Source: Polynucleobacter alcilacus (GTDB lineage: Bacteria > Pseudomonadota > Gammaproteobacteria > Burkholderiales > Burkholderiaceae). Taken from it: a stretch of 64,000 bases of DNA. Made by a program: the position numbers and the translations under genes. The notes beneath the pieces were generated by a model that did not search any database, was not told the DNA's origin, and was given only the letters and a program-made list of their open reading frames with translations. Shown piece by piece: positions 28,635 through 40,749 of the stretch (its first letter is position 1; every line of letters starts with the position of its first letter). Location: the NCBI RefSeq assembly GCF_018881545.1, contig NZ_JACVQD010000001.1:586039-650038 (forward strand). Reading direction: 5' to 3'.

Positions 28635-29330
28635 ATGTTGATTGCTTTTCAAGACGCCCTTGCTTTACTTGCCCATCTAGATGGTGGAGTGATCGGAATC
28701 GTCCTGGTTTCTCTTCAAGTAAGCCTAAGCGCCCTATTCTTTGGGACCCTGCTGGGACTTCCAATCGGCGCCCTGTTGGCCACAGAGGAATTTAGCGGTA
28801 AAAAGTGGATTATTGTGACTTTAAATACCCTCATGGGTGTCCCTACTGTCATTGTTGGTGTGATCGTTTATTTAATGCTGTCTCGGACGGGGCCTCTAGG
28901 GGCTTGGGGGTGGCTATTTACACCCAAAGGTATGATCTTGGCCCAAGTGTTGCTCACAACGCCTCTCATCGCCGCTCTGAGCAGGCAAATCTTGGAAGAT
29001 TCCTGGAGAATTCACCGTGACTCCTTCCTAAGCCTCCGGTTACCGCCTATGGCGCGCTATAAATGGCTTATATGGGATTGCCGTTTCTCCCTCACAATTG
29101 CCATCCTTGCTGGACTCGCTAGGGCCATTTCTGAGGTTGGTGCCGTCATGATCGTCGGCGGCAATATTGATCATTCCACCAGAACGATGACTACCGCTAT
29201 TGCCTTAGAAACTAGCAAAGGCGATCTTCCACTTGCATTAGCACTCGGGATTGTCTTACTTGGAATTGTGCTGTTGGCTAACCTGTTTACTTTTGCTGTG
29301 CGTCAAATTGCAGAGCGTCGCTATGGGTAA
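28635..29330 (+). CDS. tupB: Tungstate-type ABC transporter permease (TupB-like)
   Basis: A 231-residue permease with about six membrane segments and the EAA-type loop (SLRLPPMARYKWLIWDCRFS with ISEVGAVMIVGGNI), as in TupB/WtpB tungstate and molybdate importers. It overlaps the ATPase gene that follows. It stands next to a formate dehydrogenase locus whose enzyme needs molybdenum or tungsten, which fits the assignment. The substrate-binding protein TupA is not in the neighbourhood. Confidence 0.88.
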   Translation: MLIAFQDALALLAHLDGGVIGIVLVSLQVSLSALFFGTLLGLPIGALLATEEFSGKKWIIVTLNTLMGVPTVIVGVIVYLMLSRTGPLGAWGWLFTPKGMILAQVLLTTPLIAALSRQILEDSWRIHRDSFLSLRLPPMARYKWLIWDCRFSLTIAILAGLARAISEVGAVMIVGGNIDHSTRTMTTAIALETSKGDLPLALALGIVLLGIVLLANLFTFAVRQIAERRYG

Positions 29331-30030
29331 TATGACTGAACAATTTGAGAAGTACGTTGAACTCAAAGACATTACGGTAAAAAGTAATGGGAGGATTATT
29401 CTCAATATTCCTCACGCCATTATTCCAGCTGATCGTATTACTGCCTGCATTGGTCCGAATGGAGCGGGAAAGACCACCTTATTGAAACTGTTAGACGGCC
29501 TCATCAAGCCAGATACGGGAACAGTGAAATATTCATTCACCCATAAAACCGCATTAGTTTTGCATCACACTCCCATGATTAAGGCTTCAACCAAAGCCAA
29601 TTTGGGCATCGTGACAGATGCTGATTCTTCAATTACTGCAACCCAAATTAATGAAGTGATTGACCGAGTGGGTCTTGGTAAACTGGCCTCTAGCCCTGCG
29701 CACAAACTCTCTGCCGGTGAAAGGCAAAAGCTGTGCTTGGGTAGGGTAATTTTACAAAAACCGAACTTGGTTTTATTAGACGAGCCAACAGCCAACCTCG
29801 ATCCCAATACTACCGAGCAAGTCGAAGACATCATCCGTCAATTTGATCGAAATGCAACGGATGTGATTTTTTCATCTCATCAACTTGCACAAGTACAAAG
29901 ACTGGCCGAGTACATTATCTTTATTGATCAGGGTGAGATAAAAGAAAAGGGACCCGTAGGCCCCTTCTTTTTAGATCCCCAAACGCAGGCTGCTAAACGC
30001 TACCTACATCAAGAATTGCTAACTGATTAA
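29323..30030 (+). CDS. tupC: Tungstate-type ABC transporter ATP-binding protein (TupC-like)
   Basis: The ATPase partner of the permease, about 235 residues. Walker A GPNGAGKTT (near residue 47), the signature LSAGERQKLCLGRVI and Walker B LVLLDEPTANLD are intact, and the switch His is in FSSHQLAQ. The frame is open into the end of the permease gene, but that part only encodes out-of-frame membrane sequence; ATG 29323 (or 29332) is the sensible start, giving an eight-base overlap with the permease gene. Co-transcribed with it. Confidence 0.88.
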   Translation: MGNMTEQFEKYVELKDITVKSNGRIILNIPHAIIPADRITACIGPNGAGKTTLLKLLDGLIKPDTGTVKYSFTHKTALVLHHTPMIKASTKANLGIVTDADSSITATQINEVIDRVGLGKLASSPAHKLSAGERQKLCLGRVILQKPNLVLLDEPTANLDPNTTEQVEDIIRQFDRNATDVIFSSHQLAQVQRLAEYIIFIDQGEIKEKGPVGPFFLDPQTQAAKRYLHQELLTD

Positions 30031-30344: not shown

Positions 30345-31400
30345 TTATTTATTCAGTTTGTCATACCAGAGCTCATGGTGCTCTTTAGCCCAAGTAGCAT
30401 CAACATAACCCGTCTTCATGCCATCAATTGACCCTTGCATACCAATAGTACCGATATAGATGTGGCCCATTGCCATCGCTGACATCAATATGGCAGCGCT
30501 GCTATGAATGATGTTGGCGATCTGCATCGTCCCACGAGTGTACTCAATCGTCATGAATGGCACGATCATATCGAGCACAAAGCCAGATGCAGAAATGACT
30601 AATCCCAAGAAAGTCATGCCAAACCAGAACCAGACCTTTTCACCGCCATTAAAGAAACCAGCTGGTACATGCTTGCCACTAAATATTCCACCAAAGGAAA
30701 GGAACCAAGCCATATCACCTTTGCCAGGTAAATTCTTATGCGCAAAGAGTAAGAAGAAAACGACAATACAAATTGTGAAGAGTGGGCCAGTGAAGTTGTG
30801 GATGTTTTTACAAACATCCAAGAATGAGCCATAAGCAACTCCACCCATAATTGGCATTGCAAAATATTTTCCGTAGAGGATAAGCAGTCCTGTAAAGGCC
30901 AAAGCTAAAAAGCTAGCAGCCATCGTCCAGTGAACAAACCGGTCGAAGAGGCTGAAGCGTTTAATTTTTACACCAGACATTGGCTCATGCAGCTTGATTG
31001 AGCCCTTCAATATATACATCGCAGCGATACCGAAGAATGCAATCGCCAATAACCAACCACCGTAAACGGTGATGATACCGTTACGAATCAGACGCCATTC
31101 TTGACCAGAGCGCTGAATCAGAACGCTGGCTTCTTTATCTGGGATGCTGACGAAGTTATAGGGGTCGCTATTGGCAGAGGTAAAGATTGATGGATTCGCT
31201 GGCTGTGATTGGGCCTGGGTCCCATTAGCAAGGCTATCGGGATTGGCTGGCACTGACCTAGGAGGAATATCCACTCCGCTAGGAGAGGGCAGCGGCGCCA
31301 TTGGCGCGCGCTCTGCATAACTTACTCCACTCGCTAGACTGAGCGACAGACCTGTAGCCACCACCAAAGTGCGTAGAACTTTAGAGAATGATCGTTTCAT
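30345..31400 (-). CDS. fdhC: Formate dehydrogenase gamma subunit, cytochrome b556
   Basis: The membrane anchor and quinone-reducing subunit, 351 residues. It has an N-terminal signal sequence (to about SGVSYA), a Pro-rich periplasmic stretch, a first membrane helix around 120-140, then the FdoI-type four-helix cytochrome: RFVHWTMAASFLALAFTGL, KNIHNFTGPLF, and the C-terminal ANIIHSSAAILMSAMAMGHIYIG with heme ligands. ATG 31400 is preceded by AAGGA with correct spacing; the ATG two codons earlier is too close. The N-terminal extension makes it longer than E. coli FdoI (211), as in other Burkholderiales. Confidence 0.92.
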   Translation of the reverse strand: MKRSFSKVLRTLVVATGLSLSLASGVSYAERAPMAPLPSPSGVDIPPRSVPANPDSLANGTQAQSQPANPSIFTSANSDPYNFVSIPDKEASVLIQRSGQEWRLIRNGIITVYGGWLLAIAFFGIAAMYILKGSIKLHEPMSGVKIKRFSLFDRFVHWTMAASFLALAFTGLLILYGKYFAMPIMGGVAYGSFLDVCKNIHNFTGPLFTICIVVFFLLFAHKNLPGKGDMAWFLSFGGIFSGKHVPAGFFNGGEKVWFWFGMTFLGLVISASGFVLDMIVPFMTIEYTRGTMQIANIIHSSAAILMSAMAMGHIYIGTIGMQGSIDGMKTGYVDATWAKEHHELWYDKLNK

Positions 31401-31447
31401 ACACATGTCCTTAAACGTTTTCGTTTTATTTATTGTTGTTTAGTTGA

Positions 31448-31684
31448 TCACTTAACGCGACTGTATTCGTTTTGACCTTGATTGCGCTTGTCAACTGATT
31501 CAGTCCAACTGCCCTGATTTCCAGGGGCCCAGTTTTTTGTCATGAACCCATTATCGGCACCCATATATGGGGCTACGTCTGGACGCTTAGCAACCTTGGC
31601 AGCAATTTCTGGTGGCTCAGAACATGCGGCCAAAAGCGTTGCTGCTGCAAAACACATACCGAGAGTTCTGAAATTGAATTTCAT
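31448..31684 (-). CDS. Small lipoprotein of the formate dehydrogenase locus (78 aa)
   Basis: A 78-residue protein with a lipoprotein signal peptide; the lipobox LAAC places the lipidated Cys at residue 21. The mature part (SEPPEIAAKVAKRPDVAPYM, then a Trp- and Gln-rich hydrophilic tail) matches no family I can name. It lies between the Fe-S and cytochrome subunit genes and shares one base with the former, so it is surely co-expressed and could be a periplasmic accessory of the complex. Its function is unknown. Confidence 0.75.
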   Translation of the reverse strand: MKFNFRTLGMCFAAATLLAACSEPPEIAAKVAKRPDVAPYMGADNGFMTKNWAPGNQGSWTESVDKRNQGQNEYSRVK

Positions 31685-32340
31685 TAGTTAGCTCCTGGAA
31701 TTTTTGCAGCAGGGGTTGGAGTTGGCGCTGGGGTATCCGGACCACCATAGGCAGTAGTCCAACCAAATGCCTTAGAACCAGCATACTTGCCATTCTTCTC
31801 GCGAGTAGCAACCCGGTTATTGAAGATTCCAGAAATAATATCGCTATCACCACCAATTAAAGCCTTGGTTGAACACATTTCTGCACAGAGTGGCAACTTG
31901 CCTTCAGCTAGACGATTACGGCCATATTTCTCAAACTCGGCAACGCTACCATTTGCTTCTGGACCCCCACTACAGAAGGTGCACTTATCCATCTTGCTAC
32001 GAGTACCAAAAGCACCTTGACTCAAGAACTGTGGCGCACCAAATGGGCAGGCAAAGGAGCAGTAGCCACAACCAATACAAATATCTTTGTCATGCAGGAC
32101 AACACCTTCATCAGTGCGGTAGAAACAATCTACTGGGCAAACAGCCATACAAGGTGCATCACTACAGTGCATACACGCCACTGAAACTGATTTTTCCTGA
32201 CCAATGATGCCGTCATTCACCGTAATAACGCGACGGCGATTGACGCCCCAAGGCACTTCATTATCGTTCTTACATGCAGTCACACAACCGTTACATTCGA
32301 TGCAACGTTCTGTGTCACAGATAAATTTCATTCTTGCCAT
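31684..32340 (-). CDS. fdhB: Formate dehydrogenase beta subunit, four [4Fe-4S] clusters
   Basis: A 218-residue polyferredoxin carrying electrons from the catalytic subunit to the cytochrome. Four clusters can be assigned: CIECNGCVTAC, CMHCSDAPCMAVC with the following CP, CIGCGYCSFACPFG, and CTFCS with the later CAEMC. Length and spacing match the FDH-O/FDH3 beta type, but the C-terminal membrane helix of E. coli FdoH is missing, as in shorter Fdh3B proteins. The end is Pro/Ala/Thr-rich. Confidence 0.94.
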   Translation of the reverse strand: MARMKFICDTERCIECNGCVTACKNDNEVPWGVNRRRVITVNDGIIGQEKSVSVACMHCSDAPCMAVCPVDCFYRTDEGVVLHDKDICIGCGYCSFACPFGAPQFLSQGAFGTRSKMDKCTFCSGGPEANGSVAEFEKYGRNRLAEGKLPLCAEMCSTKALIGGDSDIISGIFNNRVATREKNGKYAGSKAFGWTTAYGGPDTPAPTPTPAAKIPGAN

Positions 32341-32367: not shown

Positions 32368-35346
32368 TTAGGCAAATTTTTCGATTTGACACATAGTGGT
32401 TTTAGTCTCTTGCATCATCGTTACCTGGTCATAACCATAAGTAGTTGCAGTATTGACTGCCTCACCCAGAACTACTGGGGCAGCGCCCTCTGGATAGTAT
32501 TTACGCAAGTCCGCACCCTGCCACCAACCAGCGAAGTGGAATGGCACAAAGGCTGTACCTTGATCCACACGTTCAGTCAGCATTGCACGTACCTTGATCT
32601 TGGCACCTGTTGGCGATATGACCCAAACATAATCCCAGTTCTTAATGCCCCGATCCGCTGCAGCTTTTGGATTAATCTCCACAAAGTTTTCTTGTTGTAG
32701 CTCAGCTAACCATGGGTTAGAACGGGTTTCGTCTCCACCACCCTCATACTCGACCAAACGGCCTGAAGTCAGAATAATTGGGAACTTTTCATACAGCTTC
32801 AGATTTAAGTTTTGATCCTGAACTGACTTGAAGAGCGTTGGCAAGCGCCAGAAATTCTTCTTATCTGCAGACGTTGGGTACTTACGCATCATCGGCGCGT
32901 TGGTACTGTAGAGGGCTTCACGGTGAATAGGAACTGCATCTGGGAAGTTCCAAACAACCGCTCTGGCCTTGGCGTTACCAAATGGATGGCAACCGTTCTT
33001 CATCACGACGCGCTGGATACCGCCAGATAAGTCAGTCTTCCAGTTCTTACCTTCAGCAAGCTTTTTCTCATCCTCGGTTAATTGATCCCACCAACCTAGT
33101 TTTTTCACAAATACGTGATCGAACTCTGGATAACCCGTGGTAATTGCAGAACCCTTGGAATAGGAACCATCCTCAGCCAGCAAGTTCTTACCTTCACGCT
33201 CAACACCAAAGTTGGCACGGAAGTTACCACCACCCTCCATCACACTCTTACTAGTGTCATAGAGATTTGGTGAGCCAGGATGTTTGATCGCTGCGGTACC
33301 GTAGCAAGGCCAAGGCAAGCCATAGTAATCACCAGTGGTGTCATAGCCAGTTACTGGATCAACACCACCACGGGATTTCAGGGTCTTCGGATCAAATGTA
33401 GCAACCATTCTCATGTGCGCTTTGAGACGCTCTGGAGTTTGACCGGTGTAACCAATCGTCCATACACCACGGTTGATTTCACGCAAAATAGATTCGATCT
33501 CTGGCTCTCTCCACTGCTTACCGGCAAATTTAGAGTTAAGCATTTTGTAATTGACCGACAATTCTTGGCCGAAGCCTAGGCGATCTGCAAATGCTTGCAT
33601 GAGAACATGGTCAGGCACAGACTCAAAGAGCGGATCGATGACTTTCTCGCGCCACTGTAGCGAACGGTTTGATGCAGTTGCAGTCCCACAGGTTTCAAAC
33701 TGAGTGGTGGCTGGTAATAAGTAAACATTGCGACTCTTATTGACTGCCTGACCTTCTGCCGGAGGCATTGCCGCCATTGCAGCAGTTGCGCTTGGATACG
33801 GATCGACTACAACCAACAGATCCAGTTTGTCCATCGCCCGCTTCATATCTAAACCACGAGTTTGGGAGTTTGGAGCGTGGCCCCAGAAGAACAAACCTTT
33901 TACGTTGGTTTGCTGATCAATCATGTCATTCTTTTCAAGAACAGCATCAACCCAACGAGATACAGTTGTTCCAGACTTCTCCATCATGTCTGGTGCATAA
34001 CGACCTTTAATCCATTCGTAGTCAACACCCCAAACAGTTGCAAAGTGTTTCCATGAACCCGCAGCCAGACCATAGTAGCCAGGCAAGGAGTCTGGGTTTG
34101 GACCAACGTCCGTTGCACCTTGAACGTTATCGTGCCCGCGGAAAATATTAGTACCGCCGCCCGATTTACCAACGTTACCTAGGGCCAACTGCAAGATGCA
34201 AGAAGCGCGAACCATGGAATTGCCGATAGTATGCTGCGTTTGGCCCATACACCAAACTACAGTACTAGGCCGATTCTTAGCCATGGTTTCAGCAACTTTA
34301 TACATTTGTGCTTCTGGAACACCGCAAGCCTCTTCTACGTTTGCTGGAGTCCATTTCTCCATTACTTCTTTACGAATCTCATCCATACCGTAAACACGGT
34401 CGTTGATGTATTTCTTGTCTTCCCAGCCATTTTTGAAGATGTGATACAGAACACCAAATAAGAAAGGAATATCTGTACCCGAACGGATACGAACATACTG
34501 ATCTGATTTAGCTGCAGTACGGGTATAACGCGGATCCACTACGATGACTTTGCAGCCATTTTCTTTTGCATGCAAAAGGCTCAACATCGAAACTGGGTGT
34601 GCCTCTGCAGCGTTTGAGCCAATGTACATGGCCGCTTTAGAGTTCATCATATCGTTATAGCTATTGGTCATGGCGCCATAGCCCCAGGTGTTTGCAACAC
34701 CGGCAACTGTGGTTGAGTGACAAATACGAGCCTGATGGTCTGTATTGTTCGTTCCAAAGAAAGAAACCCACTTACGGAGTAAGTAGGCTTGTTCGTTGTT
34801 GTGCTTAGAAGAGCCAATGAAGAACATCGCATCCGGAGAATACTTCTCACGAATACTCTTCATCTGAGCAGTAATTTCAGTTAATGCCTGATCCCAAGAA
34901 ATACGCTGATACTTGCCATCCACCAACTTCATTGGGTAGCGCAAACGATAGTCACCATGGCCATGCTCACGCAAAGCTGCGCCTTTTGCACAGTAAGAGC
35001 CCATATTGATCGGGGAATCAAATACAGAGTCTTGACGAACCCAAACACCATTTTCAACAGTAGCATCTGTAGCGCAACCTACTGAACAGTGGGTACAAAT
35101 AGTTCTTTTGACTTCAATCTTGCCTTTGCCGTCCAGCATTGCTTTACTAGGCTCTGCTACCGCTTTTTGGACAAAGCTTAATTGGCTAGCAGCGATACCG
35201 GCGCCTACACCCACTCCTGAACGCTTCAAGAATGTGCGGCGATCCATAGTTGGAACAGCTGCTTTTAAGCCGCGCGATAGGCTACCAATCAAATGTGATG
35301 TAGAGCGGCTGCTTTGTGGGGTATTGGATTTACGAGTTAGACTCAT
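32368..35346 (-). CDS. fdhA: Formate dehydrogenase catalytic (alpha) subunit, molybdopterin enzyme with Cys ligand
   Basis: The 992-residue bis-MGD subunit that oxidises formate to CO2. It has a Tat signal (DRRTFLKRSG, from residue 35) after a basic 34-residue extension, an N-terminal [4Fe-4S] site (Cys84, Cys87, Cys91, Cys119), and the metal ligand region DHQARICHSTT in which Cys209 takes the place of the selenocysteine of E. coli FdnG, followed by the conserved His210. The C-terminal MGD-binding domain is complete (about 860-990). No in-frame TGA occurs, so no selenium is needed. Molybdenum or tungsten could be the metal; a TupBC transporter is close by. Confidence 0.95.
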   Translation of the reverse strand: MSLTRKSNTPQSSRSTSHLIGSLSRGLKAAVPTMDRRTFLKRSGVGVGAGIAASQLSFVQKAVAEPSKAMLDGKGKIEVKRTICTHCSVGCATDATVENGVWVRQDSVFDSPINMGSYCAKGAALREHGHGDYRLRYPMKLVDGKYQRISWDQALTEITAQMKSIREKYSPDAMFFIGSSKHNNEQAYLLRKWVSFFGTNNTDHQARICHSTTVAGVANTWGYGAMTNSYNDMMNSKAAMYIGSNAAEAHPVSMLSLLHAKENGCKVIVVDPRYTRTAAKSDQYVRIRSGTDIPFLFGVLYHIFKNGWEDKKYINDRVYGMDEIRKEVMEKWTPANVEEACGVPEAQMYKVAETMAKNRPSTVVWCMGQTQHTIGNSMVRASCILQLALGNVGKSGGGTNIFRGHDNVQGATDVGPNPDSLPGYYGLAAGSWKHFATVWGVDYEWIKGRYAPDMMEKSGTTVSRWVDAVLEKNDMIDQQTNVKGLFFWGHAPNSQTRGLDMKRAMDKLDLLVVVDPYPSATAAMAAMPPAEGQAVNKSRNVYLLPATTQFETCGTATASNRSLQWREKVIDPLFESVPDHVLMQAFADRLGFGQELSVNYKMLNSKFAGKQWREPEIESILREINRGVWTIGYTGQTPERLKAHMRMVATFDPKTLKSRGGVDPVTGYDTTGDYYGLPWPCYGTAAIKHPGSPNLYDTSKSVMEGGGNFRANFGVEREGKNLLAEDGSYSKGSAITTGYPEFDHVFVKKLGWWDQLTEDEKKLAEGKNWKTDLSGGIQRVVMKNGCHPFGNAKARAVVWNFPDAVPIHREALYSTNAPMMRKYPTSADKKNFWRLPTLFKSVQDQNLNLKLYEKFPIILTSGRLVEYEGGGDETRSNPWLAELQQENFVEINPKAAADRGIKNWDYVWVISPTGAKIKVRAMLTERVDQGTAFVPFHFAGWWQGADLRKYYPEGAAPVVLGEAVNTATTYGYDQVTMMQETKTTMCQIEKFA

Positions 35347-35735: not shown

Positions 35736-35757
35736 TTTGATGCGGTGCAGCATCAAA
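35736..35757. other. Stem-loop at the 3' end of the TorD-like gene
   Basis: TTTGATGC (35736-35743) and GCATCAAA (35750-35757) form an 8-bp stem around a six-base loop, overlapping the TorD-like stop codon. There is no T tract on the leftward side, so it is more likely an mRNA processing or stability element separating the accessory genes from the structural genes. Confidence 0.5.
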
Positions 35758-36403
35758 TCATGTCAAAACTCTGCCCTTCAATCGCTAGGAATTCTCTGGT
35801 CAGCGCGGCGATTGGGTGATAAAGATGCATCTCTGGAATAGCCTCTATTGCATCGCACAAGTCGTCATACCAAGGACGAATATGGGCATTGAAAAAAACC
35901 CTTTGATTTATAAGGTTAGAAATTTCGACATCATCCCCTGCAATCAGGTAGCGCATCACTTCGCAAAGCGCTGAAATATGATCTTCGGTTTCGGTTACCT
36001 CTTCTGCGGATTCAAGACCGAACCCCTCTAAGGCCTTCCGAATATTCACCAGTGGCTTTTCGTTTAAGTGCCCTGCCATGTAGAAGGAGCCATTAACAAC
36101 AATATTGGGCTTACCTACGCTAATGAAATTCAGGTCAAACTCATCCTGCCAAGCTTTGGCTGGATTGTTTTTAGCTGCCTCTACGACAGCCATCCATAAT
36201 TTAGCCAAGGGAGCATTATCGGTAACATCATGTTGATCGGCTGTAGCGGCAATTTGATCTAACAACTCTTGATCAGGCGGCAGGTGGAAAAAGCCTGCGA
36301 TCAAACCATATAGATCTGCTCTTGCTAGATCCTCTGGTAAACCAATGTCCCCCACTTCAGTCGATGAACTTTCCTTGGCTGCTTCTTTTGGCATTTCGCT
36401 CAT
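35753..36403 (-). CDS. TorD-family molecular chaperone for formate dehydrogenase
   Basis: A 216-residue all-helical chaperone of the TorD/DmsD group, which binds the Tat leader of a molybdoenzyme and holds it until the cofactor is inserted. RADLYGLIAGFFHLPPDQELL near the N-terminus and the later EDHISALCEVMRYLI with VFFNAHIRPWYDDLCDAI (the family's HxxPW-like region) support the call. The obvious client is the catalytic subunit encoded downstream. It overlaps the poly-ferredoxin gene by four bases. Confidence 0.88.
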   Translation of the reverse strand: MSEMPKEAAKESSSTEVGDIGLPEDLARADLYGLIAGFFHLPPDQELLDQIAATADQHDVTDNAPLAKLWMAVVEAAKNNPAKAWQDEFDLNFISVGKPNIVVNGSFYMAGHLNEKPLVNIRKALEGFGLESAEEVTETEDHISALCEVMRYLIAGDDVEISNLINQRVFFNAHIRPWYDDLCDAIEAIPEMHLYHPIAALTREFLAIEGQSFDMI

Positions 36404-38490
36404 ATTTCTTTTTTCACCATATCTACAACACGACAGTCACTACACATCTTGAGCCGATCCATTGCCGCACCTGCAAAAGCCTCATGCGCACCCAACTTGC
36501 TGAGCATTAAATCCACCATCTTCAGGGTTCCAAAAGGCTTTCCGCAACTAATACAATGAAAAGCTAGGGTTTCATTCAAAGTCACCTTTTGTTTACGCTG
36601 CTCAACAGTTTGCAGGCGAGGATCAAGCGTCAAAGCATGTTCTGGACAAGTTTGCACACAAATACCGCATTGCACACACTGCTTTTCAATAAAAGAAAGT
36701 TTGGGCTCGTCTGGGTTGTCTAATAGCGCACCCTCAGGACAACTACTTACACAAGACATACACAAGGTACAAGCCTCTTTATTAATTAGGAGGCCACCTA
36801 ATAAGGAAGATTTTGGAAGGACAACTCCTGCTTCAGGCAATGGCGTCTTTGCCTGTTTTTGTAAATACTCAAGCACTGCCTCAACAGTTTCACGCTTCTG
36901 ATTGGATAAACCAAAGCTTGAAGGGGGGCAGATTGGAGTCAGTGAGCCGCGCTGACGAAGTTCCCCCATCGCTTTTGATACCGTTTGTAAATCCTCAGCA
37001 GAATCAGTCAGCACCAAGCGGATGCGGTCATCGAATCCATAAGCATTCAAGATGGCATTAGCCAAATGCGCTTGTTCTTCAAGAGCGGCGCGATAGGCTG
37101 GGTCCTCATCACCACTGCAGAGCAACACGACCTCAGCAAATCCATAAGTTAAGGCGCCAAGCCAGAGATCTAAACCAGTAGAGGCAATGTGTTCAATGCC
37201 ATAAGGAATCACAAAAGCTGGCAAGCCCTCGTACTGCTTAGGCTTTAAGTGCGCTACTCGACCCAAACCATCGATCATCTGGGTGCCTACTTTTAAGGTA
37301 TGTAACAGCAGACTTGGGGCCATCGCCTGATGAATCTTTTTCGCCTCAGCAGTAAATACTGAGGCGATAGTTTTGAGCTCTTTTCCCTGATGCGGAACAC
37401 TCGGGTAGTTGTAACGCATTGCACCCGAGGGGCATACCGTGGCACAGGCACCACAGCCCATGCAGAGATTAGGGTTGACCTCGACACTACCTTGGCCACT
37501 TTTGAATAAGGAACTAATCGCGCCGGTCGAACAAACATCAATACAAGAGTTGCAGCCTACCTTACCGTTACGGCCATGCGCGCACACTTTTTCGTTATAC
37601 GCAAAATATTTAGGCTTCTCAAATTCACCAACCATCTCCAGTAATTGATTTACTACTAGGGCTTGGTCTAGTGGATCTTTACCAGGAGCAAAGTAACCCT
37701 GCGGTGTTTGACTCATGCGCATTTTTGGATCGGCACGCAAATCCAAGATCAAATCAAATTCTGCATTGCGCTCAAGATCCTTACGCTCAAAAGAAATTGC
37801 GCCAATGCTGGCGCACGCAGTGACACAGGAACGATGCGACTTACATTTTGACAAATCAATCTGGAACGATAGGTCGATCGCATTTTCTGGGCAGACTTCA
37901 ACACAGGCACCGCAACGAGTGCACATCTCAGGATCAATCGGATTTTGCAAATCCCAATCTACTGAAAACTTTCCAAGGTAACCATCTAACTTGGTGACCA
38001 CTCCAGAATAAATAGGATAGTTCCGCGTCAGCGGTAAATCACCAGGCTCTGTACATAAAACAGAAACATCGAGTGATTGGCTTAACTTTTCCGCCCAGGG
38101 TAGCGCTTGAGATCCAGCGCCGACAATGAGTAACCGTCCCTCGCTCTGATAATTGATAACGGGGACTGGCTCAGCCTCAGGCAGATCTGCCAAGGCAAGT
38201 AATGCTGCAATCTTGGGGCCCGATATTTTTGCTTCTTGAGTCCAGCCAGCTACTTCTCGGATATTGACGAAACGCAGGGGTGCAACTAAAGGTTTTTCAG
38301 CTTGATCAGCTAGCTCAGCAAAAAGAGCACTCTCTTGAGTGCAGGCAACTACCAAAGAATCAGATCCGTCGAGCGCCTTCAAAAAAGAGCCCACTTCTTG
38401 TCTGCACAAGGAATTATGAATGGGGATACCCATAGTCTTTGCATCCAAAGGCATGGTGCCATTACAGTTACAGACTAATTTTTGACTCAT
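36400..38490 (-). CDS. Large poly-ferredoxin with Rossmann-like segment (696 aa), formate dehydrogenase accessory
   Basis: A 696-residue soluble iron-sulfur protein. It begins with a short CNCNGTMP motif, has a nucleotide-binding-like LLIVGAGSQALPWAE near residue 124, and then at least six ferredoxin-type motifs: CTRCGACVEVCP, CKSHRSCVTACA, CNSCIDVC, CMGCGACATVCP, CTLCMSCVSSCP and CVQCGICVQTCP. The C-terminus has two CxxC pairs (CISCG, CSDC). No membrane or signal segment is seen. The family accompanies formate dehydrogenases in Burkholderiales; whether it is an electron carrier to another acceptor or an assembly factor is not known. Overlaps both neighbours by four bases. Confidence 0.85.
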   Translation of the reverse strand: MSQKLVCNCNGTMPLDAKTMGIPIHNSLCRQEVGSFLKALDGSDSLVVACTQESALFAELADQAEKPLVAPLRFVNIREVAGWTQEAKISGPKIAALLALADLPEAEPVPVINYQSEGRLLIVGAGSQALPWAEKLSQSLDVSVLCTEPGDLPLTRNYPIYSGVVTKLDGYLGKFSVDWDLQNPIDPEMCTRCGACVEVCPENAIDLSFQIDLSKCKSHRSCVTACASIGAISFERKDLERNAEFDLILDLRADPKMRMSQTPQGYFAPGKDPLDQALVVNQLLEMVGEFEKPKYFAYNEKVCAHGRNGKVGCNSCIDVCSTGAISSLFKSGQGSVEVNPNLCMGCGACATVCPSGAMRYNYPSVPHQGKELKTIASVFTAEAKKIHQAMAPSLLLHTLKVGTQMIDGLGRVAHLKPKQYEGLPAFVIPYGIEHIASTGLDLWLGALTYGFAEVVLLCSGDEDPAYRAALEEQAHLANAILNAYGFDDRIRLVLTDSAEDLQTVSKAMGELRQRGSLTPICPPSSFGLSNQKRETVEAVLEYLQKQAKTPLPEAGVVLPKSSLLGGLLINKEACTLCMSCVSSCPEGALLDNPDEPKLSFIEKQCVQCGICVQTCPEHALTLDPRLQTVEQRKQKVTLNETLAFHCISCGKPFGTLKMVDLMLSKLGAHEAFAGAAMDRLKMCSDCRVVDMVKKEI

Positions 38491-39107
38491 TCGCTATCTT
38501 CTTTAGTTTTTTTCTGAGCGGGCTCAACGGGTAATTTATCTAACTCATCACTGTGTTTCTCAGATGAGGAATGGATGGATGTTAAATCAGTTTGAGTTTG
38601 TGTCCCCAAAGAGCCATCTTGCAATTGCTTTTCTGCCGATTGTTGATTGGTCTGTTTTTCTTCTTGATTTGCCAATTGATTTGCTTCTTGGTTTGCCTCT
38701 TGGTTTACGTCTTTAACCAGCTCATCAGCGGGCTTACGGAAGAGATTGAGCATATCGCTCTGCACCATTCTCTCCAGCATCCCCGGCGGTAAAGGATCCG
38801 GCTTGGAATAATCGCCTATATAAATATCCAAACCATCCATGACATTGAAATGGGGGTCAGTAAACATCTTCTTCAAAGCAGCTTGTTGAACAGTTGGATC
38901 CACATTAGGCTTCATAAAAGCAGAAAAATCTGGGTCAAAGCGATCGATCTTCTCAACGTCTTCCAATGAAACAGGAGGGAGGGCTTCAGGCTCTGGAGTA
39001 GCAGGAATTGCAACCGGGGCCGGGGTCGTATCCACTCTCTTTTCTGCAAGCTCATCCTCTTTACCTGCTTTGCGTCTAGACCAACGACCTAAAAATCCAT
39101 CTGCCAT
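38487..39107 (-). CDS. DUF3306 protein
   Basis: A 206-residue protein of DUF3306, a family of unknown function found with formate dehydrogenase genes. The conserved part is the N-terminal FLGRWSRRKA and the central IDRFDPDFSAFMKPNVDPTV with HFNVMDGLDIYIGDYS. The C-terminal third is a low-complexity tail with QEANQ-like repeats and many charged residues, not conserved in character. It is sandwiched between DUF3305 and the poly-ferredoxin genes with overlapping starts and stops. Confidence 0.85.
   Translation of the reverse strand: MADGFLGRWSRRKAGKEDELAEKRVDTTPAPVAIPATPEPEALPPVSLEDVEKIDRFDPDFSAFMKPNVDPTVQQAALKKMFTDPHFNVMDGLDIYIGDYSKPDPLPPGMLERMVQSDMLNLFRKPADELVKDVNQEANQEANQLANQEEKQTNQQSAEKQLQDGSLGTQTQTDLTSIHSSSEKHSDELDKLPVEPAQKKTKEDSE
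38664..38711. repeat. Four degenerate 12-bp tandem repeats inside the DUF3306 gene
   Basis: Four consecutive 12-base units begin at 38664, 38676, 38688 and 38700 (TTGATTTGCCAA, TTGATTTGCTTC, TTGGTTTGCCTC, TTGGTTTACGTC). On the coding strand each adds four residues of the QEAN type to the low-complexity tail. This is typical of slippage-driven repeat growth in an unconstrained linker. Confidence 0.75.
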
Positions 39108-39646
39108 TACTCCTCCGCTGGGCGCTCAGCACCCTTGAATGAAGCTGGCTTATGGCGTTTTTTTACTTCAGGCCGATAGTGCTCGTTGACATACTCTTGC
39201 AACCAAGAAGCATGCTCATCGCTCATGGGCACTGTGTCCACTGACTCTCCACCATCAAGAAGTCGAGCTGCTTCGTTGTAACTCACACAAATACGATGGG
39301 GCACAGCAAAGGTATTTTCAGACATAGCTAAGGCAAGAGATTGGCCATCGATATATCGATCAATATCTTCCTCTAAACGCCACATCACAAACCAACACGG
39401 GGTAGTTGCGGAAACATTCAGGTAGTACCCTTCGGCTTCATCAGGGAAAAGATTGAGTTCATAGCCAGTAAATACCCAAGACTCACCATCAGCATCACGA
39501 CCCAGGAAATGGCCGGAGACAGAATTCTTGGGATTGCTGTTATCACTAAATTGCCCAAAATCAGGCAATACCTCCTGAGGAACCCAGCGATAGGAAATCC
39601 ATGGGTTGTCAATATTTTGCTTACGCATTAAAACTGCAAAGCGCAT
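39107..39646 (-). CDS. DUF3305 protein
   Basis: A 179-residue protein of DUF3305, whose genes are found next to DUF3306 and formate dehydrogenase. The N-terminus (PWISYRWVPQEVLPDFG) and the central WVFTGYELNLFPDEAEGYYLN with CWFVMWRLEE are the recognisable parts. No membrane segment or metal motif is present. Function unknown; the constant association suggests maturation or electron-transfer control of the dehydrogenase. It starts 15 bases after mrp, and one base is shared with the DUF3306 gene. Confidence 0.85.
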   Translation of the reverse strand: MRFAVLMRKQNIDNPWISYRWVPQEVLPDFGQFSDNSNPKNSVSGHFLGRDADGESWVFTGYELNLFPDEAEGYYLNVSATTPCWFVMWRLEEDIDRYIDGQSLALAMSENTFAVPHRICVSYNEAARLLDGGESVDTVPMSDEHASWLQEYVNEHYRPEVKKRHKPASFKGAERPAEE

Positions 39647-39660
39647 AAATGCTCAAGGCC

Positions 39661-40749
39661 TCAGGTGTTTTGAACCACAATATTTGGAAATTTACTGCTC
39701 ATATCTTTAGATAGAGTAGCAACACGAATGGCTACTTGTCTAGCAATCTCTTTATAAATAACACTAATAGCGCTATCAGGATCGGCAACCACCGTTGGAC
39801 GGCCAGCATCTGCCTGCTCACGTATGGAAAGATTCAGCGGTAATGCCCCCAAGAAATCCACTCCATATTCTTTACACATTTTCTCGCCACCACCACTACC
39901 AAAGATATGCTCTTCATGTCCACACTGAGTACAAATATACGTACTCATATTTTCAATAATGCCGACGATTGGTACACCAACCTTCTCGAACATCTTTAAG
40001 CCCTTACGCGCATCTAATAAAGCAATATCTTGTGGAGTAGTGACGATGACTGCGCCTGTCACAGGCACCTTTTGGGATAGGGTCAACTGAATATCACCAG
40101 TACCTGGCGGCATATCCACAATCAAATAGTCCAAATCACGCCAACGGGTTTGACGGAGTAGCTGTTCTAAGGCAGAAGTCACCATCGGGCCACGCCAGAC
40201 CATCGGGGCATCTGCTTCAATCAAGAAACCAATCGAGCTGGCTTGTAAGCCATGGCCCTCCATTGGCTCAATCGTATTTTCTTCAATCGATTCTGGTCTA
40301 CCTGTGATGCCTAACATCATCGGCTGACTTGGGCCATAAATGTCCGCATCCAAAATTCCGACTTGTGCACCTTCGGCTGCTAGTGCTAGGGCTAAGTTAA
40401 CCGCAGTAGTTGACTTACCAACACCACCCTTGCCACTAGCTACAGCAATAATGTTTTTTACGCCCGGCAATAATTTCACGCCACGCTGAACTGCGTGCGC
40501 AACTACTTGACTGCTGACATTGATGCTCACGTTTTTTACACCAGCTATTTCACGCACAGCATTAATGACTGATTTACGGATGGATTCGAACTGGCTTTTA
40601 GCGGGGTAACCCAAAACAATATCTAAGGAAACATTTCCATCTTCGACGCGTAAATTTTTAATATTTTTAGCCGTTACAAAGTCGATCTTAGTATTGGGAT
40701 CAATCAAACTTTTTAATGCACTTTGTACGGCTTCTACAGTAACTGACAC
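39661..40749 (-). CDS. mrp: Iron-sulfur cluster carrier protein Mrp (ApbC/NBP35 family)
   Basis: A 362-residue P-loop ATPase that binds and transfers [4Fe-4S] clusters. An N-terminal MIP18/DUF59 domain (about 1-80) is followed by the deviant Walker A VASGKGGVGKSTTAVNL near residue 104 and by the cluster-binding CTQCG in the C-terminal part. Length and layout match Mrp. It is the first gene of the run leading into the formate dehydrogenase locus, an apt place for a cluster carrier, given that the locus encodes more than ten Fe-S clusters. The 151 bases upstream presumably hold the promoter. Confidence 0.95.
   Translation of the reverse strand: MSVTVEAVQSALKSLIDPNTKIDFVTAKNIKNLRVEDGNVSLDIVLGYPAKSQFESIRKSVINAVREIAGVKNVSINVSSQVVAHAVQRGVKLLPGVKNIIAVASGKGGVGKSTTAVNLALALAAEGAQVGILDADIYGPSQPMMLGITGRPESIEENTIEPMEGHGLQASSIGFLIEADAPMVWRGPMVTSALEQLLRQTRWRDLDYLIVDMPPGTGDIQLTLSQKVPVTGAVIVTTPQDIALLDARKGLKMFEKVGVPIVGIIENMSTYICTQCGHEEHIFGSGGGEKMCKEYGVDFLGALPLNLSIREQADAGRPTVVADPDSAISVIYKEIARQVAIRVATLSKDMSSKFPNIVVQNT

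Follow-up and report, generated by a model that had tools for sequence, protein, structure and literature searches.

The 64,000-nucleotide stretch of the Polynucleobacter alcilacus genome analysed here (contig NZ_JACVQD010000001.1, positions 586,039 to 650,038; referred to below as the window) encodes on its minus strand a polyferredoxin of 696 residues and 34 cysteines (36400–38490). We regard this protein, with moderate confidence, as a factor that works in the cytoplasm on the maturation of the formate dehydrogenase (FDH) of FDH3 type encoded alongside it, acting in a NapF-like manner and possibly by reductive loading. This is the best explanation for a protein that has no export signal, carries many clusters and follows enzymes that contain molybdopterin guanine dinucleotide (MGD) and are exported by twin-arginine translocation (Tat), together with their TorD chaperones, whether the enzyme is an FDH or not. 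In the predicted structure the protein is, at the level of fold, an HdrA (residues 1–377) joined to an MvhD (residues 389–527) and a HycF-like tail (residues 564–693).

Six ferredoxin motifs could be located in the open reading frame (ORF), formed by C190/193/196/200, C216-(H219)-C222-C226, C303-x9-C313/316/320, C343/346/349/353, C574/577/580/584 and C605/608/611/615, the second of which has a histidine instead of a cysteine as second ligand. Pfam Fer4 matches the protein over five stretches with an E-value of 7e-30, so that the motifs are not a product of chance. A preliminary description of this gene, made from the sequence, had counted at least six such motifs and additional cysteines at both ends, and both features are present; the latter comprise C7, C9, C29 and C50 at the N-terminal end and C646/649 and C683/686 at the C-terminal end. 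Among the matches listed, no Pfam model other than the ferredoxin-type 4Fe-4S models exceeds its cut-off, the closest named relative is a protein of Polynucleobacter nymphae (88% identity), and the sole NCBIfam model above its cut-off is TIGR02179 (PorD/KorD; 69.2 against 60.05). The assignment to PorD/KorD was not adopted because this match is confined to the ferredoxin stretches. Neither a twin-arginine motif nor a membrane segment was found in the polyferredoxin (maximum Kyte-Doolittle value of 1.55).

The AlphaFold2 model, calculated from an alignment of 79 sequences, has a mean pLDDT of 94.6 and a pTM of 0.90. This alignment comprised the window protein and 78 of 80 loci (the best 80 of 168 found in the search for relatives), L053 and L088 being omitted as their N-terminal ends are apparently cut. 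The top Foldseek matches in the PDB were HdrA chains (E-value 2.8e-16, TM-score 0.27), and FDH-HdrABC complexes (7bkb) were also among the structural matches. Whole-chain TM-scores were low for the first seven matches (0.23–0.27), which is normal when several domains are matched across a large deletion. Superposition of residues 1–377 on HdrA (8rvu_A) with VIA-align 2 gave a Z-score of 12.3 and a root-mean-square deviation (rmsd) of 6.1 for 362 aligned residues, and in the model the parts follow one another in the order seen in HdrA: N-terminal domain, thioredoxin reductase (TrxR)-like domain, inserted ferredoxin and C-terminal ferredoxin. HHalign also aligned the polyferredoxin family with HdrA-like proteins, represented by three pseudomonadotal sequences that score below the curated HdrA2 cut-off, at a probability of 98.9% (E-value 2.4e-17), colinearly from residue 3 to approximately residue 250; beyond that point the alignment crosses the deleted part and was disregarded. 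The resemblance to HdrA noted in the preliminary description is therefore one of homology at both fold and profile level, and an MvhD-like domain comes in addition.

Residues 1–111 (38158–38490) resemble the N-terminal domain of HdrA, including its CxC..C..C arrangement (Cys7, Cys9, Cys29 and Cys50), and contain a NIRE..GW motif; the alignment with the HdrA-like sequence L174 is colinear from residue 3. Residues 113–291 (37618–38154) form a shrunken domain of the flavin adenine dinucleotide (FAD) type found in HdrA and TrxR (7bkd_a, residues 113–292, Z-score 12.2; TrxR 4zn0_A, residues 117–288, Z-score 10.4). Unlike in HdrA, a large flavoprotein part is deleted here, mostly from the middle of the FAD domain (residues 115–291 of the model against 149–576 of HdrA), and the polyferredoxin reaches 51.2 bits with the HdrA2 model of NCBIfam, the cut-off of which is 1100. 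A ferredoxin pair is inserted in this domain (residues 185–235; 37786–37938), at a place where HdrA-like proteins also have a ferredoxin, and a second pair (residues 299–362; 37405–37596) corresponds by alignment and HHalign to the C-terminal ferredoxin of HdrA. The MvhD-like domain (residues 389–527; 36910–37326) superposes on MvhD (5odh_D) with a Z-score of 11.2 and an rmsd of 2.9 (131 of 137 residues aligned). At the C-terminal end, residues 564–693 match HycF (7z0t_F) with a Z-score of 10.3 and an rmsd of 2.5 (128 of 136 residues aligned), and comprise a ferredoxin pair (residues 566–625; 36616–36795), supported also by Pfam and the alignment, and a tail (residues 640–696; 36403–36573).

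The conservation of these parts was calculated on an alignment of 102 sequences, made up of the window protein, all 80 loci and 21 of the 23 loci of the class sample that come from other genomes (L023 and L025 were dropped as short). Eighteen of the 20 cysteines at 303–353, 574–615 and 646–686 are invariant, while Cys605 is found in 101 sequences and Cys346 in 86. The N-terminal cysteines, conserved in the long forms, are retained in 77 (Cys7), 77 (Cys9), 80 (Cys29) and 81 (Cys50) of the 102. The inserted ferredoxin pair is present in 42 sequences, and His219 (CxxH for CxxC; 37813–37845) in 41 of those 42. Residue 346 (37453–37455), the second cysteine of the cluster at 343–353, is absent from 16 relatives, namely 15 short forms and L016, and judging from the sequence this cluster may be held by three cysteines and be labile in them. 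One relative (L023:1492-2631; 380 residues) is devoid of the N-terminal and Rossmann-like parts, and FDH3 beta is present in its genome.

The cysteine quartet of the tail (C646/C649-x33-C683/C686) is invariant in all 102 sequences, as is Arg687. In HycF the ferredoxin pair is likewise followed by a quartet, spaced as CxxC-x34-CPxC, whereas the CxxC-x33-CxxC of the polyferredoxin is devoid of the proline. According to a passage of PMC9474812, the quartet of HycF holds a metal ion next to FdhF, an FDH subunit, and its second cysteine is followed two positions later by Arg122; the equivalent position is a lysine in 86 of the 102 sequences. The proximity of that metal to the FdhF contact suggests that the HycF-like tail is a docking site, although HycF belongs to formate hydrogenlyase, a membrane complex, as one of its subunits, and the tail considered here is one end of a 696-residue protein that has no membrane segment. 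The cysteines of MvhD are [2Fe-2S] ligands. No conserved cysteine was found in the MvhD-like part of the 102 sequences (the window protein has Cys458 and Cys521, neither of them conserved), so that the fold is shared with MvhD and those ligands are not.

FAD sites of the kind found in HdrA are marked by a GxGxxG/A motif, an acidic residue after strand 2 and an ATG-type motif. The GAGSQA sequence (residues 124–129; 38104–38121) highlighted in the preliminary description is indeed present and lies, in the model, within the Rossmann-like domain. The family keeps its first glycine (Gly124, 98 of 102), whereas the complete GxGxx[GA] pattern is found in 16 sequences. Position 148, which matches the acidic residue after strand 2 of HdrA, is Glu in 14 and Asp in 18 sequences, and both features coincide in nine. 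Where the ATG-type motif would be expected, and where the HdrA-like sequence compared has AIG, the family as a rule has D-L-x, D-L-R in the window protein, with Asp250 kept in 101 of 102. FAD binding through GAGSQA was therefore rejected as a property of the family; it is possible within the genus, the window protein included, where the motif is mostly retained. The structure prediction that had been proposed as a check of FAD binding yields an HdrA/TrxR-like fold. The motif is kept in the lineage of the window, and a flavin site is not supported as a property of the family. The domain itself is not free to vary: Gly124, Asp250, Gly265, Tyr266, Gly288, Phe290 and Lys292 are kept in 98 to 102 of the 102 sequences, and the invariance of Gly265, Tyr266 and Gly288 indicates that this degenerate domain keeps a structural or binding role.

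The polyferredoxin belongs to a set of genes that share its strand and encode, in order, ApbC, DUF3305, DUF3306, the polyferredoxin, a TorD-type chaperone, FdhA, FdhB and FdhC. The DUF3306 gene (38487–39107; PF11748) and the TorD/NarJ-type gene (35753–36403; PF02613, E-value 1.3e-20) each overlap the polyferredoxin gene by 4 nucleotides, and these overlaps make it probable that translation is coupled at both junctions. FdhA (32368–35346) is the catalytic subunit of FDH3 type and carries a twin-arginine motif, FdhB (31684–32340) is the FDH3 beta subunit (NF038355, 319.8 bits against a cut-off of 240), and FdhC (30345–31406) is a membrane cytochrome b subunit with four hydrophobic segments (TIGR01583, above cut-off). 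Upstream lie the genes for DUF3305 (39107–39646; PF11749) and for the ApbC/Mrp iron-sulfur (Fe-S) carrier (39661–40749; NF008669, above cut-off). Among solved structures, 9VAP stands far above the rest, with 1242 bits for FdhA (9vap_A; next match 317) and 306 bits for FdhB (9vap_B, E-value 1.9e-90; next match 75). The 2026 review PMC13397495 describes 9VAP as a Cys-ligated tungsten FDH from Shewanella oneidensis that consists of the subunits FdhA and FdhB, tolerates oxygen and can undergo direct electron transfer.

The polyferredoxin and FDH3 beta occur together almost without exception. Of 398 Pseudomonadota genomes, 62 contain the polyferredoxin (E-value 1e-40) and 61 contain FDH3 beta, all 61 being within the 62; many of these genomes are relatives of one another, and counted by genus the figures are 36 and 35 of 212. 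In five genomes (G375, G414, G463, G488 and G503) a single polyferredoxin is listed against two FDH3 beta genes, with at most two candidates scored per genome, a ratio that suits a factor shared between enzymes better than a subunit of fixed stoichiometry. Together with the two-subunit description of 9VAP, these genomes disfavour the polyferredoxin as a stable FDH3 subunit. In the class sample the polyferredoxin was found in 24 of 185 genomes, and FDH3 beta in 19 of the 23 that were retested (the genome of the window was omitted); in the other four the contig breaks inside FdhA just downstream (G178, G048 and G087) or inside the polyferredoxin (G008). In the order sample the polyferredoxin was present in 38 of 200 genomes and FDH3 beta exceeded its cut-off in 33 of 36 tested, G107 and G377 being left out as their results were already available from the 398-genome survey.

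The three genomes of the order sample in which FDH3 beta was not found above cut-off (G393, G605 and G720) have a different enzyme at this place. In them the polyferredoxin adjoins a PF02613 (TorD/NarJ-type) gene and a PhsA/ArrA-like molybdoenzyme with a twin-arginine motif and an Fe-S subunit. The polyferredoxin thus follows exported molybdenum (Mo) or tungsten (W) enzymes and their chaperones, not formate alone, and a formate-specific function is disfavoured by this lineage. In both non-FDH operons L171 and L172 the gene of the Fe-S subunit and that of the TorD-type protein are separated by a gene for a small protein (L171:8500-8885 and L172:9907-10260), which contains two CxxCH motifs and resembles cytochrome c on visual inspection. 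The TorD-type chaperone of G393 (L137:7951-8781) has a CxxC...CxxC end that resembles the tail of the polyferredoxin and of HycF; a hidden Markov model of the tail gave it an E-value of 0.091 among 12,020 ORFs, which makes it a lead and not evidence.

Gene neighbourhoods were counted, with score limits applied, in the 52 of 80 loci that have about 8 kb on both sides. FdhA, FdhB and FdhC were found together in 49 of the 52, TorD in 48 and ApbC in 29 (25 of them within 3 kb). In genome G198 the polyferredoxin and FDH3 beta are approximately 36 kb apart, and about 3 kb from the former lies a gene whose product resembles the tungstate-binding protein TupA (224 bits against a cut-off of 400).

In the maturation route that we propose, apo-FdhA (or FdhAB) would be held in the cytoplasm by TorD, DUF3305 and DUF3306 and docked by the HycF-like tail and the MvhD-like domain of the polyferredoxin. 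Its four to six clusters would then hand over clusters or electrons, by which the clusters of FdhA and FdhB and the W/Mo cofactor would be inserted with the correct oxidation state. Tat would export the completed enzyme and the polyferredoxin would remain behind, like NapF with NapA. In a passage of PMC10609526, NapF is presented as a cytoplasmic four-cluster protein linked to the Fe-S loading of Tat-exported NapA. The two proteins would be alike in their way of working only, both being cytoplasmic, multi-cluster, ferredoxin-type proteins tied to a Tat-exported MGD enzyme, which for the polyferredoxin is suggested by sequence features, operon and co-occurrence; the polyferredoxin is far larger, has other fold content and scores 74.3 bits with TIGR00402 against a cut-off of 102.2. 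A more far-reaching form of the proposal is put forward tentatively, as a possibility that falls somewhat short of being probable. A scaffold of HdrA and MvhD that once served electron bifurcation, and whose flavin site has been eroded and [2Fe-2S] site lost, would have been put to new use together with a HycF-like docking tail. The result would be an obligate loader in the cytoplasm, by which Tat-exported MGD enzymes have their Fe-S and W/Mo centres installed or reduced, and this loader would be the accessory factor still missing for the production of 9VAP-type tungsten FDHs that tolerate oxygen.

Another way of reading the same architecture is that of a maturation reductase with a bound flavin or nucleotide, in which electrons from NAD(P)H or ferredoxin would reduce FdhA at its W/Mo or Fe-S centres ahead of export. 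The retention of the Rossmann/TrxR-like FAD domain as a fold (Z-score of about 10), the constraint evident at its seven conserved residues and the linkage of the gene to TorD would all suit it, as would the motifs of the Polynucleobacter-type sequences, the window included. In the family as a whole, the low counts of GxGxx[GA] (16 of 102), of the acidic residue at position 148 (32 of 102) and of the two together (9 of 102), the deletion of much of the middle of the HdrA FAD domain and the loss of the entire domain in L023, in a genome that has FDH3 beta, make this alternative unlikely. It appears highly improbable that the protein senses redox state or oxygen and thereby controls the release of TorD or the export of FdhA, with the clusters as readout and not as donors. 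The CxxH ferredoxin and the three-cysteine form of the 343–353 cluster could be labile, and the metal of the HycF tail has been proposed to be redox-regulatory (a passage of PMC9474812), yet neither the CxxH insert nor the three-cysteine cluster is conserved across the family. Nor did a regulatory domain or an operator come to light, although no search was aimed at either.

The role favoured in the preliminary description was electron transfer from formate to an acceptor in the cytoplasm, by which the protein could do more than only assist assembly; the FDH-HdrA complexes of methanogens work in this way. Several features would accommodate it: HdrA- and MvhD-like domains are combined in a single chain, FDH-HdrABC is among the structural matches, four to six clusters could serve as a wire, the tail resembles the part of HycF that contacts an FDH, and HydN and YsaA provide a precedent for FDH-H (a passage of PMC6004506). 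Its placement in the cell speaks against it, as FdhA carries the twin-arginine motif whereas the polyferredoxin has neither that motif nor a membrane segment. The erosion of the FAD motifs across the family, the lack of conserved cysteines in the MvhD-like part, the two-subunit composition of 9VAP and the adjacency of the same family to enzymes other than FDH in three genomes do so too, and no match to NF040770 (HdrA2) was found in the genome of the window at an E-value of 1e-60. This role is thus disfavoured, being less likely again than that of a flavin- or nucleotide-binding reductase, and HdrA-type bifurcation was rejected as the best reading on account of the eroded flavin motifs and the missing MvhD cluster. 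Assistance in assembly, which had been played down, fits best.

Several observations weigh against the role of maturation factor. The strict co-occurrence with FDH3 beta would equally fit an electron-transfer partner. GAGSQA and Glu148 are both present in the window protein, and among the eight Polynucleobacter-type sequences (the window protein and L026–L032) seven retain GxGxx[GA] and six of them the acidic residue as well, so the window protein may, to judge from these motifs, bind a nucleotide; since it and most of its closest relatives retain the motif, the loss of the nucleotide site is a trend of the family that may not extend to the window protein itself. In three of the 52 loci FdhA is absent from the flanks examined, the cases with a non-FDH partner are limited to three genomes of one bacterial family, and the adjacency of ApbC in Betaproteobacteria could be due to chance, as a methionyl-tRNA synthetase-like gene, recognised by eye, is also nearby in several loci. 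The section of PMC13397495 on 9VAP is silent on whether the polyferredoxin was present during its production. In the open-access literature, most subscription papers being outside that search, no experimental study of any member of the family was found.

Other features of the locus concern the accessory proteins and the metal supply. The DUF3305 and DUF3306 proteins (38487–39646) have no hydrophobic segment (maximum Kyte-Doolittle values of 0.76 and 0.51), and they are termed putative membrane proteins in a passage of PMC4464133. No solved relative of DUF3305 was found in the PDB by sequence search (best E-value 0.84). On the plus strand, a permease and an ABC ATPase (28635–30030) adjoin fdhC. 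We tentatively take these to be TupB and TupC, for tungstate uptake. A TupA-like protein is encoded some 27 kb ahead of the window in this genome (E-value 4.9e-72, under the curated cut-off), and together with the putative TupB and TupC it would fit a tungsten FDH.

The gene itself has been noticed before. A fer4 gene and hypothetical ferredoxins accompanying DUF3305 and DUF3306 were noted in 2015 in torD-fdh and dmsD-fdh operons (a passage of PMC4464133), and SO4506, an iron-sulfur cluster-binding protein of S. oneidensis, appears in an expression table of PMC2535785 along with the FDH alpha subunit SO4509 and FdhD SO4503. No report of the HdrA/MvhD/HycF make-up of the polyferredoxin or of its function was found in the same open-access search. 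Judging from its gene neighbourhood, SO4506 is presumably a member of this family.

Tat-exported MGD enzymes have to receive their Fe-S clusters and sulfurated Mo/W cofactor ahead of export. For the periplasmic nitrate reductase, how this happens is termed an open question in a passage of PMC10609526, and exported FDHs raise the same problem. The class of enzymes served by the polyferredoxin would include 9VAP as the closest solved homologue. If such FDHs cannot mature unless the polyferredoxin is present, its co-expression would be advisable whenever they are made in other hosts. The family also represents a clear case of an energy-conserving scaffold that was reused after losing much of its redox core.

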